Part shown: in pieces, positions 7,680 through 24,812 of the stretch
How the letters are laid out: each line of letters starts with the position of its first letter
How positions within the stretch are numbered: position 1 is the first letter of the stretch
From: a virus
Reading direction: 5' to 3' (one strand)
Virus record (IMG/VR): IMGVR_UViG_3300031857_001209
Span: 1 to 25,930 of that record
DNA length: 25,930 nucleotides
Program-made: the position numbers and the translations under genes
The notes under the pieces: model-generated
The model's input: only the letters and a program-made list of their open reading frames with translations
What the model was told of the DNA's origin: nothing
The model's database searches: none

Positions 7680-8117
7680 TCAGGATACGGGCTCCTCAGG
7701 GGCAGGCTCTTCGGCAGGTGCCGCAGGCTCTTCGGAGATGGGCTCCTCAGCCACGGGCTCTTCCACTGCAGGCTCATCCACCACAGGGGCAGGTTCTTCT
7801 GCAGGGGGTGCCACGGGCTCCTCAGCTGGCGGGACGGGGATCACGCCATCGAGCAGCTCCAGCAGGGCCTCATCTTCCAGCAGATCAGCATCGGCCAGGG
7901 CCTGAAGCTCGCTGATCCTGATCTGAGCAGCAGCGGCTTCAGACTGAGCAGCCTCAGCAGCAGCCAGAGCGGCGGTGATGGTGCCAGCATCGGCAACATC
8001 ATTGGCCAGGGCCTCGGCAAGGGCTGCCTTGGTGGAGGCCAGTTCAGCCAGGATGCCAGCCTTTTCAGTGGCGAGATACTCAAGGACTTCCTTGAGTTTG
8101 GTAACGAGAGCAGACAT
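7680..8117 (-). CDS. Coiled-coil protein with Pro/Glu-rich tail, 145 residues
   Basis: From ATG 8115-8117 (MSALVTKLKEVLEYLATEKA). Residues about 7-90 are an Ala/Leu/Glu-rich coiled coil. Residues about 94-145 are a repetitive acidic Pro/Glu region (PAEEPVAPPAEEPAP and variants). In-frame upstream starts at 8195 (MDFLTFQFFKG) and a TTG at 8201 would add 26-28 residues; the upstream part overlaps an inverted repeat, so I prefer 8117. No membrane span or signal peptide. Last gene before the terminator. The extended PE tail suggests a spacer, as in some virion-associated or periplasm-spanning proteins, but function is unknown. Confidence 0.65.
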   Translation of the reverse strand: MSALVTKLKEVLEYLATEKAGILAELASTKAALAEALANDVADAGTITAALAAAEAAQSEAAAAQIRISELQALADADLLEDEALLELLDGVIPVPPAEEPVAPPAEEPAPVVDEPAVEEPVAEEPISEEPAAPAEEPAPEEPVS

Positions 8118-8265
8118 TGTTCGTGTAAAGGTAGTGATGGAACGATTCAGCTTTTCAAAGGAACCTTTGAAGAACTGGAAGGTAAGGAAATCCATGGGCA
8201 AACGATGCCAAGGCAGCAGGCCAAAGCATCGCCCCCAGGCTAGCCCGTGTCCTGATGTGGGCCAG
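8118..8265. promoter_or_regulatory. Gap between minus-strand genes with an inverted repeat
   Basis: 148 bases. Contains the inverted repeat TTCAAAGG-AA-CCTTTGAA (8154-8171), 37 bp upstream of the preferred ATG of the PE-tail gene. This may be an operator for separate expression of that gene. The 13-mer GCAGGCCAAAGCA (8216-8228) also appears at 23751-23763 upstream of the capsid gene. No convincing sigma-70 promoter was seen. Confidence 0.4.
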
Positions 8266-8574
8266 TTAAGAGGCGGTGATCTTGCGCTTCAGCCGTTGCA
8301 GAACCATCGCGGCATGGGTGCTTTCGCCCTCGCCCGTCAGCTCCTGCTCAATGGAGAGCAACACTTCCCGCTCATGGTCCAGCTTGCCCATTTCGTAGGC
8401 AGCCTTCAGCCGATCTTCTGCCTGCGCCATCGCTCGCTGGCTGGCCTCCTCGATAGCAGCGGCGGCCCTGGTGTGGGCCTGCTCAATGGCGGCAGCGCAT
8501 TGCGCCTCCATGGTGTCAATGCCCAGCTGAACCCGAACTAGGGCCACGTCCAGGGCCAGTGCATCCGTGCTCAA
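8266..8574 (-). CDS. Coiled-coil protein, 102 residues, TTG start
   Basis: I start at TTG 8572-8574 (MSTDALALDVALVRVQLGID). It overlaps the stop of the L,D-transpeptidase gene (TTGA) and follows GGAGG by 4 nt, the best ribosome-binding site in this cassette. The protein is a long Ala/Glu/Arg-rich helix (AQCAAAIEQAHTRAAAAIEE; MAQAEDRLKAAYEMGKLDHE) and ends LQRLKRKITAS. No membrane anchor, so it is not an obvious spanin. Directly downstream of a peptidoglycan-enzyme gene, it could be a partner or adaptor; that is only context. Confidence 0.65.
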   Translation of the reverse strand: MSTDALALDVALVRVQLGIDTMEAQCAAAIEQAHTRAAAAIEEASQRAMAQAEDRLKAAYEMGKLDHEREVLLSIEQELTGEGESTHAAMVLQRLKRKITAS

Positions 8575-9158
8575 TGGGCCTCCTGCAGCACTGAGACGTA
8601 GACATTGCCCAGCGGCAACAGGGGCAGGATGCGAGCCTGCAGATCCTGATTGTGGAGGCGGATGCAACCGAGGGTGGGATAGAGCGTTTGACGCGGTGCC
8701 CAGGCCCCTGGCCAGCCGCAGGCACTGCCGCCGCCGTGGATCATGATCCCGTCACGGTAGGGCTTGCTGCTGGGGCCCTCCTGCCCTTCCAGACCTTCCA
8801 GATCGAAGGAATACCAGCCATAGGCGCAGCGGTTGGCCGAGTGGTATTTGCTGGAGGGGTGGTCCTCGTGATCCCGGTAGATCCCGCCTTTGTTGATCCG
8901 GTAAAGGCCAGGGGGCGTGTCTGTGGCCGTGCGGTGCCATTCAGCCTCCCCACCCTGCCCACGGCAGAGACAAGGGATCGTCCATAGGGGCCGGCCGTCA
9001 TGGGTGAAAGCCCGCAGGGTTTCGTTCCCGTCATTGGCGATCAGGTGGTGATCGCCCGCCTTGAGGGCTGGCCGGATCTTGGGGCCAACCAACCCAGGCG
9101 GCCAGATCGGTGGGCCTGCTGTGGTGGTCTTGACAGGGGCCGATGGGGTGGAGGTCAT
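8571..9158 (-). CDS. L,D-transpeptidase (YkuD-type) domain protein
   Basis: 195 residues from ATG 9156-9158, which overlaps the upstream stop as ATGA. The YkuD signature is visible: GIMIHGGG (His141), a Gly/Trp-rich loop, then YPTLGCIRLHNQDL with the catalytic Cys165, Arg167 and His169. The enzyme family forms or hydrolyses 3-3 or related peptide bonds in peptidoglycan through an acyl-Cys intermediate. The N-terminus (MTSTPSAPVKTTTAGPPIWP) is Pro/Thr-rich and has no signal peptide, so access to the wall needs lysis or a virion location. The domain also contains TPPGLYRINKGG, typical of the family's strand near the substrate cleft. In phage this may act in lysis, wall penetration or host wall change (inference). 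Confidence 0.85.
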   Translation of the reverse strand: MTSTPSAPVKTTTAGPPIWPPGLVGPKIRPALKAGDHHLIANDGNETLRAFTHDGRPLWTIPCLCRGQGGEAEWHRTATDTPPGLYRINKGGIYRDHEDHPSSKYHSANRCAYGWYSFDLEGLEGQEGPSSKPYRDGIMIHGGGSACGWPGAWAPRQTLYPTLGCIRLHNQDLQARILPLLPLGNVYVSVLQEAH

Positions 9159-9328
9159 AGCTGCCATTCCGAGATGAATTGCCATCCGTCGCTTTTCAAT
9201 CTAGCCAGAGTCTTGGCTACATCTTCTGGGCGAACATCAACCACCAGGGGCCTGCCCTGCTGCCCTTCAGGTGGCTGCCAGGAGTCTGAGGGATCTTCAC
9301 AGATCAGGCGAACCAAACCGCAAGCCAT
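9155..9328 (-). CDS. Hypothetical 57-residue protein
   Basis: Reads from ATG 9326-9328 (MACGLVRLICEDPSDSWQPP) to TGA 9155-9157, which overlaps the transpeptidase start by 4 nt. Contains PLVVDVRPEDVAKTLARLKS and ends DGWQFISEWQL, a compact strand-helix-strand pattern. It begins 4 nt after the previous gene's stop. Length and overlaps support a real gene; no family recognised. Confidence 0.6.
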   Translation of the reverse strand: MACGLVRLICEDPSDSWQPPEGQQGRPLVVDVRPEDVAKTLARLKSDGWQFISEWQL

Positions 9329-21276: not shown

Positions 21277-22650
21277 ATGTCAAACGTTCGCCTTAAGTTA
21301 CCGCCGAAACTTATAGAGTCTGCGCGTGCTTCGCAATATGCGAATCGGGAACGGCAGGGGGTGAAAGAAACAGAGGTAAAACTTAAGAAAAGGGCGAAGA
21401 GACAAGCAGAGGAGGAGGTCAAGAAAAAGCAGCTCGACAAGGACAAGCAGCCTGATGGGCGAAGGGTTGGGGGGCAACTTGAGCACGAGAAGAGAGAGCA
21501 GTACAAGATATGGACTAGGAGGAGGAAGAGGGGCGGGAATGGGTTCATCCTCGTGCCTGGCGGGCAGTACACGGACAATAAACTTTTACTTGAGGCAGAA
21601 CTTGATCAGGATACGATTGCTTTTACGGGGGATAATTTAATAGTTCCCTTTGCCCCATATTTCATGCCTAATAAAAAATTTAATATCACATCTAATACCT
21701 CTGGTCTGACAGGTATAACTACGAATTTAATGCTTGAGCCTGGCGTTTCTAGTGGGGAAGACAATTTCACCGAAAACCGGGGCTCAGAAGAAAGCCCAGA
21801 GATTATCCCATATACCTATAAAGGCAGTGCCTACCTATCTGCGCTATCTCATTATTCAATCACGCAAGGCCCCGTTACCGGCTACGACGGGGAAACCGAT
21901 AAATACATAACGGCAAGCACTCAAATTCCTTTTGAAGAGGCTGTATTTAACTGGACAGCTGACAAGACAACACAAGTAACCTATGAATTTATTCTTTACC
22001 TGGAATCAGGGACAAGAGAAGGCGAAACAAGGATTGAAAGTTTTCCGATCCCACCCGATGAAAATCCAGCAGACTCTGGAAGCATAGATCCGAAGGTTTA
22101 CGAGCGATCATACTTTAATGAAATGAGGATTAAGATTTTTCAGGGGCAGGGCTCATTTGACTATTTTGAATTTCAGATTCGCAATCACATAAAGACCTCC
22201 CCTTTCCTCAACTATTTTAATATCAACGAAAACTATTTTATAGACGTCTTTGACTCACCGCCTTCTACTGGTTCCGTGCCACCCGGAAGGCATCATATAG
22301 CCGTGGTCTACGAGCCAGTCGAAGGGTCTACGCAGGCGGTTCGCCGCATTTACTTGAATGGTAAACTTAAGAAGACATTTACCAGCACTTTTAACAGCAA
22401 TAAGGCTTATCACGGTGTCACGATTACTCACTCCGGCTACGAAACAGTGTTTGAAGAGAATGGAGAGTTTAAGAAGACTCCCGGCAACAGTCTTACGCCT
22501 GGTAGGTGGTACTGGGACGCTGAGTCTGTTGTTGTCACGTACTCCCCAAACGTGCCCAAGATCTGGCTTCAGTCCCTCCGTTTCACCCCGCAAGCCCTAT
22601 ACAAAGAAGACTTCACCCCCCCCACCACCATCACCGACCTAGCGGACTGA
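21277..22650 (+). CDS. Tail fibre-like protein with LamG-type C-terminus, 457 residues
   Basis: The first 85 residues are highly charged and probably helical (EVKLKKRAKRQAEEEVKKKQ). The middle (residues about 90-310) is beta-rich with many Asn, Tyr and Phe residues. The C-terminal part (about 310-457) has a jelly-roll pattern: GRHHIAVVYEPV, RRIYLNGKLKKTF, IWLQSLRFTPQALYKEDF, then TPPTTITDL. This parallels the LamG end of the 1170-residue tip protein (YVDELRISKF...FTPPTAPFP). Codons are far more AT-rich than in neighbouring genes, suggesting recent transfer. Likely a host-recognition fibre (inference). Starts 1 nt after the previous stop. Confidence 0.65.
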   Translation: MSNVRLKLPPKLIESARASQYANRERQGVKETEVKLKKRAKRQAEEEVKKKQLDKDKQPDGRRVGGQLEHEKREQYKIWTRRRKRGGNGFILVPGGQYTDNKLLLEAELDQDTIAFTGDNLIVPFAPYFMPNKKFNITSNTSGLTGITTNLMLEPGVSSGEDNFTENRGSEESPEIIPYTYKGSAYLSALSHYSITQGPVTGYDGETDKYITASTQIPFEEAVFNWTADKTTQVTYEFILYLESGTREGETRIESFPIPPDENPADSGSIDPKVYERSYFNEMRIKIFQGQGSFDYFEFQIRNHIKTSPFLNYFNINENYFIDVFDSPPSTGSVPPGRHHIAVVYEPVEGSTQAVRRIYLNGKLKKTFTSTFNSNKAYHGVTITHSGYETVFEENGEFKKTPGNSLTPGRWYWDAESVVVTYSPNVPKIWLQSLRFTPQALYKEDFTPPTTITDLAD

Positions 22651-22654
22651 CCCC

Positions 22655-22789
22655 ATGGATGACCAAAAACAAGCCCTCCCCCAACGCGCCCAGCTGATTG
22701 CCCTAGCCAACCGCCAGCGAAAGCTCAACAAAGAATCAGAAGAAAAGGTGATCAAAAAAGTGGTTCGCGAAGTGCTCAAGGACTCCTAA
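22655..22789 (+). CDS. Small charged helical protein, 44 residues
   Basis: ATG 4 nt after the fibre stop; reads MDDQKQALPQRAQLIALANR and ends KKVVREVLKDS. A single amphipathic helix rich in Lys, Glu and Gln. Position between a fibre gene and the scaffold gene and its tight spacing support a real gene. It could be a chaperone-like helper of the fibre, but nothing in the sequence proves it. Confidence 0.55.
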   Translation: MDDQKQALPQRAQLIALANRQRKLNKESEEKVIKKVVREVLKDS

Positions 22790-22800
22790 CCCCAGCAGGC

Positions 22801-22810
22801 CGGGAAAACT
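22801..22810 (+). promoter_or_regulatory. CGGGAAAACT element, copy 9
   Basis: Exact 10-mer, 11 nt after the 44-residue gene and 41 nt before the scaffold ATG at 22852, the longest spacing of the set. Confidence 0.75.
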
Positions 22811-22851
22811 TATAGGCAACTTGCACCGGCTGGGCGATCCACCGGCAACGC

Positions 22852-23655
22852 ATGAACATTCGACTTGCAGACCTGCTGAACCTCGGCGGCGCTGCTCAAT
22901 TCCCTTGGCTCCTCTCTGTTGACTCTGACCCCGCAGGAGAAGCTGATGGTGGCGGCGGTGACCCCCCGGCAGACGACGAGGATCTTGGTCAGGCTGGCCT
23001 CAAGACCCTTCGCGAAGAACGCGAGCAACGCAAGGCCCTGGAGCGAAAGCTGGCGCAGCTCGAAAGCCAGTTGAGCACCGTCAAGGATCTGAACCCTGAC
23101 ACCTACCGCGAGGCCCAGCGCAAGGCAGAAGAGCTGCAACGGCAACTCCTCGAAAGGGAGCAGCTCACAGCCTCTGAGAGGCAGCGCATGGAGGCCAAGG
23201 CACAGGAGCAGATCAGGAAGGCCAATCAACAGGCCGAAACCGAAAAGCTCAAGCGCATTGATCTGCAGGTGCGCACCCTGGCCCGTGGGGTGTTTTCTGC
23301 TGCAGAAGGCCGTGATGGGGCCGACAGCTCAGGCCTGAGCTTCTTCGATGCGTGGATGGAGTTTCAGGGCCGCCGCCATCTTCGGGTGGAGGATGCCACC
23401 GGGAAGCTCTATGTGGTTGATGGTGACGGCGATCGGATGAAGACTGCCGAGGGGCAGGACATGGATCCGGTTGCCTGGCTGAATCAACAGGCTGATAACT
23501 CCCCCGTGGTGGGCACCTTCTTTAAGCCCAAGGGCGGGGAAGGTTCTGGCGGCTTTGTTGGTGCCCGTGGCATCCGTGGCACCCAGACCCGATCGGTTGA
23601 GCAAGCGCGTCAACTGAAGGGATCAGCCCTGCTCTCAGAGCACTACGGGAGCTGA
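22852..23655 (+). CDS. Putative capsid scaffolding protein, 267 residues
   Basis: An acidic Gly/Asp-rich N-terminal region (residues about 25-47) precedes a long Glu/Lys/Arg/Gln coiled coil (about 48-137: LKTLREEREQRKALERKLAQ; REAQRKAEELQRQLLEREQL). The C-terminal half has a compact part (SFFDAWMEFQGRRHLRVEDA; GKLYVVDGDGDRM) and a Gly-rich flexible end (GGEGSGGFVGARGIRG). This architecture is typical of siphovirus scaffolds, which shape the procapsid and then leave. The gene lies directly upstream of the major capsid gene, the usual place. No protease motif is visible. Confidence 0.8.
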   Translation: MNIRLADLLNLGGAAQFPWLLSVDSDPAGEADGGGGDPPADDEDLGQAGLKTLREEREQRKALERKLAQLESQLSTVKDLNPDTYREAQRKAEELQRQLLEREQLTASERQRMEAKAQEQIRKANQQAETEKLKRIDLQVRTLARGVFSAAEGRDGADSSGLSFFDAWMEFQGRRHLRVEDATGKLYVVDGDGDRMKTAEGQDMDPVAWLNQQADNSPVVGTFFKPKGGEGSGGFVGARGIRGTQTRSVEQARQLKGSALLSEHYGS

Positions 23656-23666
23656 TCTAGGCGAAC

Positions 23667-23676
23667 CGGGAAAACT
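23667..23676 (+). promoter_or_regulatory. CGGGAAAACT element, copy 10
   Basis: Exact 10-mer, 11 nt after the scaffold stop. The nearest ATG (23697) is 20 nt downstream and opens a 33-residue ORF; the capsid GTG is at 23844. Confidence 0.75.
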
Positions 23677-23690
23677 TCAGGTGACCCCGC

Positions 23691-23780
23691 GGCGCGATGC
23701 CAATGGGTCACCGCACCGGGCGCGATGCCAGGGGCGTCGTCCACCCAGTAGCAGGCCAAAGCAGGCGCGGCGCGATGCCA
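23691..23780 (+). repeat. Three exact copies of GGCGCGATGCCA upstream of the capsid gene
   Basis: The 12-mer occurs at 23691-23702, 23719-23730 and 23769-23780, spacings 28 and 50 bp. These spacings are not multiples of 3, so the copies fall in different frames and are unlikely to be protein-coding repetition. They lie in the leader between the repeated element and the capsid start. Confidence 0.8.
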
Positions 23781-23798
23781 GCCACAGCCAACACCTAG
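23697..23798 (+). CDS. Possible 33-residue leader ORF before the capsid gene
   Basis: ATG 20 nt after the repeated element, matching the usual element-to-start spacing, reading MPMGHRTGRDARGVVHPVAG to TAG 23796-23798. Arg/Gly/Ala-rich, no motif. Its start lies inside the first GGCGCGATGCCA copy. It may be a translated leader or simply chance; support is weak. Confidence 0.25.
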   Translation: MPMGHRTGRDARGVVHPVAGQSRRGAMPATANT

Positions 23799-23843
23799 CG
23801 ATCTGGACCCCCCTACCGCTTACCCCCTTCGCGTTTTTATCCC

Positions 23844-24812
23844 GTGGCTTCTACGACTCTTTGGGAGCAGTTTGCGCTCCGCACCACTGCCGGTGCCTCT
23901 AATCTTGAACTGGGCGTTCGCGCCATCTTGAACACCGGCGAGCTGGCCCCCGTGATCCCCTGGGTTGATACCCAAGGCGGCGCCTATGTCTATGCGATGG
24001 ATGACGAGCTGCCTGATTCGCAGCCCCGTCTCTTCGACGAGGCTAACGACGACAGCCAAGGCTCCACCGTCACCGAGGCCGAGGTACTGAAGATCTATGG
24101 GAAGGACGTGAAAACGGACTCCAGCAAGATCGCCCTCTTTGGCCCCAACGCTCACGCTCGTCAGATCGAAGCTTCTGCCCGTGCCCTGCGTATGCGCATT
24201 GAGCGCGATTTCATCAAGGGCGACGCTGCCCTGAGCGCTGGCCGCGAGATGGATGGCCTTCGCAAGAAGATCACCACCGGCTCTTCCCAAGCCATCGCTA
24301 ACCACGCGACTGGTGCTGGCATGAGCTTCGCGGCTCTCGATGAGCTGATCGACTCTGTGGACGGCCCCAACAGTGAAAAGCGGCTGGTGATGGGCAAAAA
24401 GCTCGCGGTGCGTTTCGGTGCCGCAGCTCGCGCCACTGGTGTTTCCGGCACGGTCAACTTTGAGTTGAACGCCATCGGCCGGATGTCGATGTTCTACAAC
24501 GATGTGGAAATTATCCGCACCGACGTAGACAGCAAAAACGTCGCGATTCAGGGCTTTGATGAGGGCTCCAGCTCTAACACCACTTCGGTGTATTGCGTGT
24601 CCATGGGTGAAGGCTTGGTGTCTGGTGTTCAGGGCCCTTCCCTGGATATTGGCGGCAACCCACAGCCTGGCCTGGTGATCTACGACGTGGGCGAGTCGTT
24701 TGCGACCCCAACCCGCCTGACCCGGATCTCTTGGCACGCCGCCATGGTGGTTGAGAACAAGCGGGCCGCCGCTCGTCTCTACAACATCACCAACGCTGCG
24801 ATCACGGCCTGA
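23844..24812 (+). CDS. Major capsid protein (HK97-fold inferred)
   Basis: 322 residues from GTG 23844 (MASTTLWEQFALRTTAGASN). Features in order: an N-terminal arm, a strand pair (PWVDTQGGAYVYAMDDE), a long helix (ARQIEASARALRMRIERDFI), a segment GREMDGLRKKITTGSSQAIA, a helix (MSFAALDELIDSVDGPNSEK), KRLVMGKKLAVRFGAAARAT and beta strands near the end (YCVSMGEGLVSGVQGPSLDI). The 'DGL-ITTG ... LDELID-V ... LVM-K' order is common in capsid proteins of tailed phages. Direct succession to a scaffold gene supports the call. There is no Shine-Dalgarno site; the leader before the GTG is C/T-rich. Confidence 0.85.
   Translation: MASTTLWEQFALRTTAGASNLELGVRAILNTGELAPVIPWVDTQGGAYVYAMDDELPDSQPRLFDEANDDSQGSTVTEAEVLKIYGKDVKTDSSKIALFGPNAHARQIEASARALRMRIERDFIKGDAALSAGREMDGLRKKITTGSSQAIANHATGAGMSFAALDELIDSVDGPNSEKRLVMGKKLAVRFGAAARATGVSGTVNFELNAIGRMSMFYNDVEIIRTDVDSKNVAIQGFDEGSSSNTTSVYCVSMGEGLVSGVQGPSLDIGGNPQPGLVIYDVGESFATPTRLTRISWHAAMVVENKRAAARLYNITNAAITA

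Follow-up and report, generated by a model that had tools for sequence, protein, structure and literature searches.

The window, by which we mean the whole 25,930-nucleotide stretch of viral DNA analysed here (IMG/VR record IMGVR_UViG_3300031857_001209), carries a structural module in which a tape measure gene lies upstream of a head scaffolding protein gene (22852..23655, plus strand; phrog_206, E 9e-12) and a major capsid protein gene with a GTG start (23844..24812, plus strand; phrog_212, E 8e-41). The element CGGGAAAACT lies at 23667-23676 on the plus strand, and the 167-nt leader that a sequence-only reading of this DNA had described between the element and the capsid gene was confirmed. 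The element sits three bases 5' of the first of the hairpins described below. It occurs 11 times on the plus strand of the window (1188, 2072, 2984, 3144, 6511, 9589, 10107, 20333, 22801, 23667 and 25625) and never on the minus strand, mostly shortly before gene starts. In relatives G001, G008, G005 and G010 it occurs 12, 12, 15 and 3 times, always confined to a single strand, and there were zero copies in phage S-CRES3 and in phage PSS2 from 12 kb on. CGGGAAAACT looks like a candidate clade-specific promoter or processing signal. Elsewhere in the mainly plus-strand structural module the mechanical ORF list gave long minus-strand ORFs at 7680-8201, 8266-8667 and 8571-9185, all within 7680-9185.

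The leader contains three exact copies of the 12-mer GGCGCGATGCCA (23691-23702, 23719-23730 and 23769-23780), as had been noted from the sequence. Zero further copies were found in the rest of the record, a 25.9-kb fragment, so within this fragment the 12-mer is not frequent at random positions. When the span 23667-23843 was dinucleotide-shuffled 5000 times, a 12-mer was present three times in none of the shuffles and twice in 14. Allowing two mismatches gave 5 copies window-wide against 4.4 expected; because such copies are not unusual across the window, the signal lies in the clustering of GGCGCGATGCCA. The repeats had also been described as lying in different frames, which is true of copy 2, alone in its frame, but not of copies 1 and 3, which are 78 nt apart and share one.

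The same reading had proposed translational control or a small RNA, pointing to a 33-residue ORF and to a part of the leader that recurs at 8216-8228. The ORF exists, opened by an ATG at 23697 that is supplied by a conserved hairpin loop (GCGATG), but it is not conserved among the 18 relatives tabulated, in which the equivalent ATG opened frames of 16 to 123 residues, none of 33 and the nearest of 35 and 36. At most a short stretch was shared where the DNA is alike, the residues TGRDA recurring in L017, L022 and L027. With the 33-residue frame unconserved, a leader peptide or attenuator was rejected. The match at 8216-8228 is a real 13-mer, but in 390 of 2000 shuffles the leader had one or more 13-mers in common with the remainder of the window, and the real one was absent from the other 148 leaders collected in this work; we rejected it as a meaningful link because it is at chance level. 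A separate small RNA was unsupported as well: one terminator-like site was found in 22600-24000 (23273-23293), outside the leader, where shuffles gave 1.6. That the leader encodes a peptide or small RNA, for which the window does offer the 33-residue ORF, is consequently very hard to credit. The suggestion of translational control was only partly supported, since the ORF was unconserved and the second match was at chance level; what fits it, as judged from the sequences, is a conserved and covarying leader and the same hairpin near the scaffold start, which extends the feature beyond 23667-23843.

Read as RNA, GGCGCGATGCC forms a GGC-GCGAU-GCC hairpin, and each copy of GGCGCGATGCCA is a hairpin tip. 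Hairpin 1 (23680..23712, plus strand) consists of an outer stem GGTGACCC/GGGTCACC, an internal loop, an inner stem GGC/GCC and the loop GCGAT at 23694-23698. Hairpin 2 (23716..23732, plus strand) has the core GGC-GCGAT-GCC at 23719-23729 with its loop at 23722-23726, and a weak outer CC/GG pairing read by eye. Hairpin 3 (23764..23783, plus strand) reads GGC-GC-GGC[GCGAT]GCC-A-GCC with its loop at 23772-23776; it shows one double change and was formed in the minimum-energy fold of the window, which pairs the hairpin 2 segment otherwise. A capsid-protein search returned 20 close relatives, 63-88% identical, and all 20 carry such hairpins in capsid leaders of similar length. The outer stem round the first copy changes in a compensatory manner, being GGTGACCC/GGGTCACC in the window and GCAAGTGATC/GATCACTTGC in relative L015. 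Across the 16 distinct rows of the alignment of these leaders (A1), 97.2% of cells were paired and six pairs had double changes, and the covariation score was 0.229; shuffles gave 0.141, with none of 500 reaching the observed value, and sliding the structure gave no more than 0.112. Hairpin 1 covaries in these rows (helices 1 and 2). The hairpin 2 core can pair in all 21 leaders of A1, and its core pairs are almost invariant, so this hairpin adds little covariation evidence.

Overall folding energy was rejected as evidence for structure, since the whole leader did not differ significantly from shuffles in either the window (z -0.10) or relative L018 (z +0.81), and the case therefore rests on comparison rather than energy. 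We also rejected a bistable switch that would let the stretch separating two hairpins pair either way: the second pairing was no better than in shuffles, its mean score being 12.0 compared to 11.0 in shuffles for 41 leaders and 11.2 compared to 11.1 for 9 leaders of the window clade. A search of IMG/VR with two spaced 12-mers returned seven stretches and gave no lead: one (L005) is the contig of relative L018, and the other six look unrelated, four of them being near-copies of one region.

To cover more diverged relatives, searches with the capsid alignment and with the PSS2 and S-CRES3 capsids were combined with the earlier loci and the window, giving at least 149 leaders, from which 94 representatives were taken by requiring sufficient length and an overlap of less than half in 11-mers with any earlier leader. 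Loci L035-L054, whose contigs are those of L011-L030 again, were not counted, nor were L106/L141 (one contig), L128 and L195, in which the gene abuts the edge of the locus. Other contigs found twice were used in their better-framed copy; one was entered twice (L113, L166), with only L113 a representative. With no loop assumed, these leaders held 500 pentaloop hairpins with a stem of at least 4 bp, and the commonest loops were GCGAT (29), GAGAT (27), GTGAC (24), GTGAT (22), GAGAC (19) and GCGAC (10), the seventh having 6 counts. The top six are all six members of G[ACU]GA[CU]. While the stems change by compensatory substitution across the 94 leaders, the loop stays G[A/C/U]GA[C/U], hereafter GHGAY. 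GHGAY hairpins with a stem of at least 4 bp numbered 131, compared to a mean of 2.1 and a maximum of 5 in shuffles. When a 3-bp stem was allowed, 90 of the 94 leaders had at least one and 77 had at least two, compared to one in 22 leaders and two or more in none on the reverse strand. The four leaders without one belong to a Caulobacter phage (L034) and to three IMG/VR contigs (L096, L097 and L103).

The capsid hairpins lie mostly some 50-150 nt upstream of the start codon; in the S-CBS2-like group the two loops are near -98 and -59. Covariation was assessed with loops picked by position only. For the second capsid hairpin in 61 sequences (59 distinct), pairing reached 89.8% and the covariation score was 0.992, compared to 0.337 in shuffles and 0.07-0.27 when slid. 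Its first four stem pairs formed in 61, 60, 59 and 55 of the 61 sequences, falling to about 21-28 when slid. RNAalifold applied to 34 leaders recovered both hairpins and drew the loop as a triloop closed by G-C or G-U. As to the loop, the data fit both a pentaloop and an HGA triloop with G-C or G-U as its closing pair. Larger scans covered six records (S-CRES3, PSS2 from 12 kb on and four relative contigs); the remaining matches there were scattered, and in several records GHGAY matches were no more numerous than reversed-loop controls. The hairpins are conserved sense-strand features: they are strand-specific and have compensatory stems and a fixed loop, with the stem changes across relatives expected of a conserved, structured RNA family of the cis-regulatory kind.

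A hairpin of the same kind lies just before the scaffold gene of the window (22826..22845, plus strand; CCGG-C-UGG[GCGAU]CCA-CCGG), ending 6 nt before the scaffold ATG at 22852. A scaffold ORF was found for 79 of the 94 representatives and none for 15. Around the 79 starts there were 69 GHGAY hairpins with a stem of at least 4 bp, compared to a mean of 0.94 and a maximum of 3 in shuffles, and 65 of the 79 had one between -150 and +120 of the start, compared to 2 for the reversed loop and 2 for the other strand. Positions were counted in 76 phages, the three outgroup scaffolds being excluded. With the search beginning at 8 nt, 68 of these had a loop ending 8-15 nt ahead of the start codon, most commonly at 14 nt (24/68), which places the scaffold hairpin at or near the ribosome-binding site, with the capsid hairpins farther upstream. 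Of these 79 scaffold leaders, seven, including three outgroups, were without the 5-mer before the start when it was sought wholly within 30 to 9 nt upstream. Covariation of the scaffold hairpin in 61 distinct sequences was 0.545 compared to 0.155 in shuffles and at most 0.180 when slid. Phage S-CBS2 has the hairpin CGGGT-GAGAC-GCCCG before the start of gp036 (L033 1014-1745), annotated 'host specific protein J'; gp036 is a candidate for the scaffold gene of that phage.

In 15 of the 76 phages the scaffold coding sequence itself held another hairpin, its stem at least 5 bp long (reversed-loop control, 0), its loop starting at +24 to +45 and at +27 in 10 of the 15. In L075, L077, L085, L088, L115, L116 and others, GHGAY hairpins with compensatory stems fall at about scaffold codons 9-16. 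With GHGAY hairpins inside the coding sequence, RNA structure may therefore constrain the N-terminal codons.

These internal hairpins bear on two further explanations. The motif could act as DNA, either as a hairpin promoter of the phage N4 type or as a protein operator made of inverted repeats, and the N4 virion RNA polymerase promoters do resemble it in having a conserved loop and a variable stem. A hairpin inside the scaffold coding sequence cannot be the promoter of that same gene, and a duplex operator would be expected to conserve its arms rather than an asymmetric spacer. The T7-type RNA polymerase family PF00940 was found in 0 of 9 records, a weak point as the control gave no match anywhere. 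We regard a DNA-level element as highly improbable. The hairpins could otherwise work like nut or put sites, in antitermination of transcription or in RNA processing, with a modified polymerase or an RNase as their reader. The leaders do lie between two virion genes, several of them by eye have a terminator-like stem and T run ahead of the hairpins, and the annotation of S-CRES3 (L210) includes an RNase III and an SPT5-type elongation factor. Such an element would hardly be expected to recur where the scaffold gene starts and within its codons, the stems are too short for RNase III, and neither the window nor 20 chosen loci matched an Rfam 15 family at the gathering threshold. This explanation seems improbable to us, if less so than the DNA-level one. 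Three weak Rfam matches at 23600-23900 (E 0.48-1.5) were far below gathering and were rejected. The two S-CRES3 annotations, at L210 54-488 and 6945-7205, are possible partners of structured leaders.

The hairpins extend to phages of other hosts. A search with the capsid of phage PaMx11 returned at least 80 loci; two were dropped with the gene at the locus edge (L249, L283) and three named phages were added, giving 81. The length and 11-mer rules applied to the first set left 58 representatives. Their capsid leaders held 60 GHGAY hairpins compared to a mean of 1.19 and a maximum of 4 in shuffles and 2 on the reverse strand. With a 4-bp stem, at least one was present in 46 of the 58 and at least two in 14, and 12 had none. 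Carriers include phages of Pseudomonas, Xanthomonas and Stenotrophomonas whose capsid genes are homologous. Among 39 PaMx11-like scaffold leaders the commonest pentaloop was GTGAT (23 of 263 hairpins), and by a hand count with no shuffle control 24 of the 39 had at least one GHGAY match and 15 had none. In PaMx11 and Ab18 the hairpins, read by eye, are just upstream of an AGGAG Shine-Dalgarno-like sequence. When genome contigs were searched with the PaMx11 capsid, five loci were returned, all titled MAG, and three of them had at least one GHGAY hairpin in the capsid leader. The named isolates that carry the motif are S-CRES2, S-CRES3, S-CBS2, PSS2, PaMx11 and Ab18, with DoCa5 and A1432 carrying it at the capsid gene. 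The scaffolds of the window, S-CRES3, PSS2 and PaMx11 all belong to phrog_206, and the capsids of the window, S-CRES3 and PaMx11 to phrog_212. The hairpins thus stand at set places relative to two start codons and are common to phages of distant hosts that have homologous capsid and scaffold genes.

This distribution has gaps. The motif is not present wherever the protein family is: seven of nine non-cyanophage outgroups with homologous capsids were without a match (4-bp stem where tested). No match was found in homologous-capsid phages, one each, of Caulobacter, Brevundimonas, Rhizobium, Paenibacillus and Rhodococcus, nor in DSS3_MAL1 or nickie (Pseudomonas syringae). Streptomyces phage Rowa had one weak match at the scaffold start, with a 3-bp inner stem, and Erythrobacter phage XM05 (L214) had one scaffold match. 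Since homologous capsids exist without the hairpin, the proteins can do without it. The T7-like cyanophages P-SSP7 and Syn5 (Prochlorococcus, Synechococcus) had no hairpins at the capsid and head-assembly genes tested. The motif tracks one capsid/scaffold lineage across distant hosts and host phyla, patchily.

Could the hairpins simply recruit a general host factor, such as the ribosomal protein S1, a cold-shock-type protein or an RNase, and serve as enhancers or mRNA stabilisers of highly expressed virion genes with no feedback? The position of the capsid hairpins well upstream of the start, and not over it, would suit such a role. GNGAY is the consensus bound by the Lin28 cold-shock domain in the loops of pre-let-7 hairpins (PMC5311490). 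That pathway is one of animal microRNAs and the resemblance amounts to five letters, so by analogy we treat it as a lead to the kind of protein and not as a claim of family. Also in favour of a host factor, a cold-shock domain was matched in none of nine phage records, several of which are fragments. Against this, P-SSP7 and Syn5 had no such hairpins at the genes tested; the motif follows, if patchily, a single lineage of capsid and scaffold in hosts of different phyla; and a hairpin 8-15 nt before a start codon is an odd enhancer. We therefore consider a host factor unlikely, although it is the strongest of the competing explanations.

The reading we prefer, at a probability of roughly 0.6, is that the leader is a cis-acting RNA operator, and that an RNA-binding protein specific for the loop uses such hairpins to control translation of both the scaffold and the capsid mRNA. 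The fixed loop, changing stems, sense strand, occurrence in pairs and set distances from start codons together give the hairpins the look of an operator read by a protein. The capsid leader displays two to three GHGAY hairpins and the surroundings of the scaffold start codon one or two, and these would act as RNA, on the assumption that they are transcribed. A protein would recognise the loops, often as pairs, and its binding would alter how readily ribosomes reach the mRNA or how stable the mRNA is, with scaffold and coat synthesis set together as a result. As the scaffold hairpin occupies or borders the ribosome-binding position, it points to translation; the capsid hairpins are farther upstream, and recruitment, stability or co-operative covering are therefore all possible there.

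The binder could be encoded by the phage, most simply as unassembled scaffold or coat protein, giving feedback on assembly. This autogenous model was suggested by the two target genes and their common families (phrog_206/phrog_212). In its full form it would be the RNA regulon of one capsid lineage, in which a GHGAY loop code on scaffold and coat mRNAs is read by unassembled scaffold or HK97-fold coat protein and assembly meters synthesis; on sequence grounds we hold this tentatively, as a possible but not the probable case. The predicted scaffold model (mean pLDDT 76) has a coiled coil and a small mixed domain and gave no PDB match at E <=0.001. Two viral models matched its fold at E 0.001, one named scaffolding protein and one unnamed. 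The fold search on this predicted model gave no informative match to an RNA-binding domain in the scaffold.

Operators of this general kind are already known. The ssRNA phages MS2, PP7 and Qbeta resemble the proposed system in pairing a coat protein with a translational operator hairpin. They differ in having RNA genomes, an unrelated coat fold, replicase as the controlled gene and other loop or bulge rules. The scaffolding protein of P22, a tailed phage, is autoregulated post-transcriptionally, an assembly feedback on scaffold synthesis like that of the proposed model; we know of no RNA hairpin family of the GHGAY kind there. Lambda nut boxB and HK022 put are likewise short phage RNA hairpins with fixed loops, but they are found in early operons, whereas the hairpins here are near virion-gene start codons. 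Little, to our knowledge, has been explained of the way a tailed phage balances coat against scaffold protein.

By analogy, the closest working parallel in the literature consulted appears to be the gene 43 operator of T4 and RB69, an mRNA hairpin about 40 nt upstream of the start codon whose loop bases matter and which mediates autogenous repression (PMC3014915). The likeness lies in a phage mRNA hairpin upstream of a start codon with an important loop. There, a single hairpin with the loop UAAC controls a DNA polymerase gene and the protein is known, whereas here one to three hairpins with GHGAY loops are found at scaffold and capsid genes. The PSS2 genome paper discusses promoters and terminators, and the word hairpin is absent from its main text (PMC2784084). 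No description of these hairpins was found in the open-access papers searched, and an earlier description elsewhere is possible. Within the reach of that search, the GHGAY hairpins as a loop family, the pair of genes they target and how widely they occur are all new.

A compact, strongly conserved signal of RNA type thus sits at exactly the scaffold and coat genes, and because cultured, named isolates carry it, it can be mutated and its binder pulled down. As judged from the sequences, these data suggest that the hairpin family is an undescribed switch for the amount of shell protein made. Even with a host factor as the binder, a large group of phages would have its capsid and scaffold genes marked by an RNA code. 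If the hairpins are an autogenous operator, they would represent a new class of RNA-protein pair that links capsid assembly to translation, and if unassembled scaffold or coat protein reads the loops, this would be an autogenous RNA-binding role in tailed phages, conserved from cyanobacterial to gammaproteobacterial phages.
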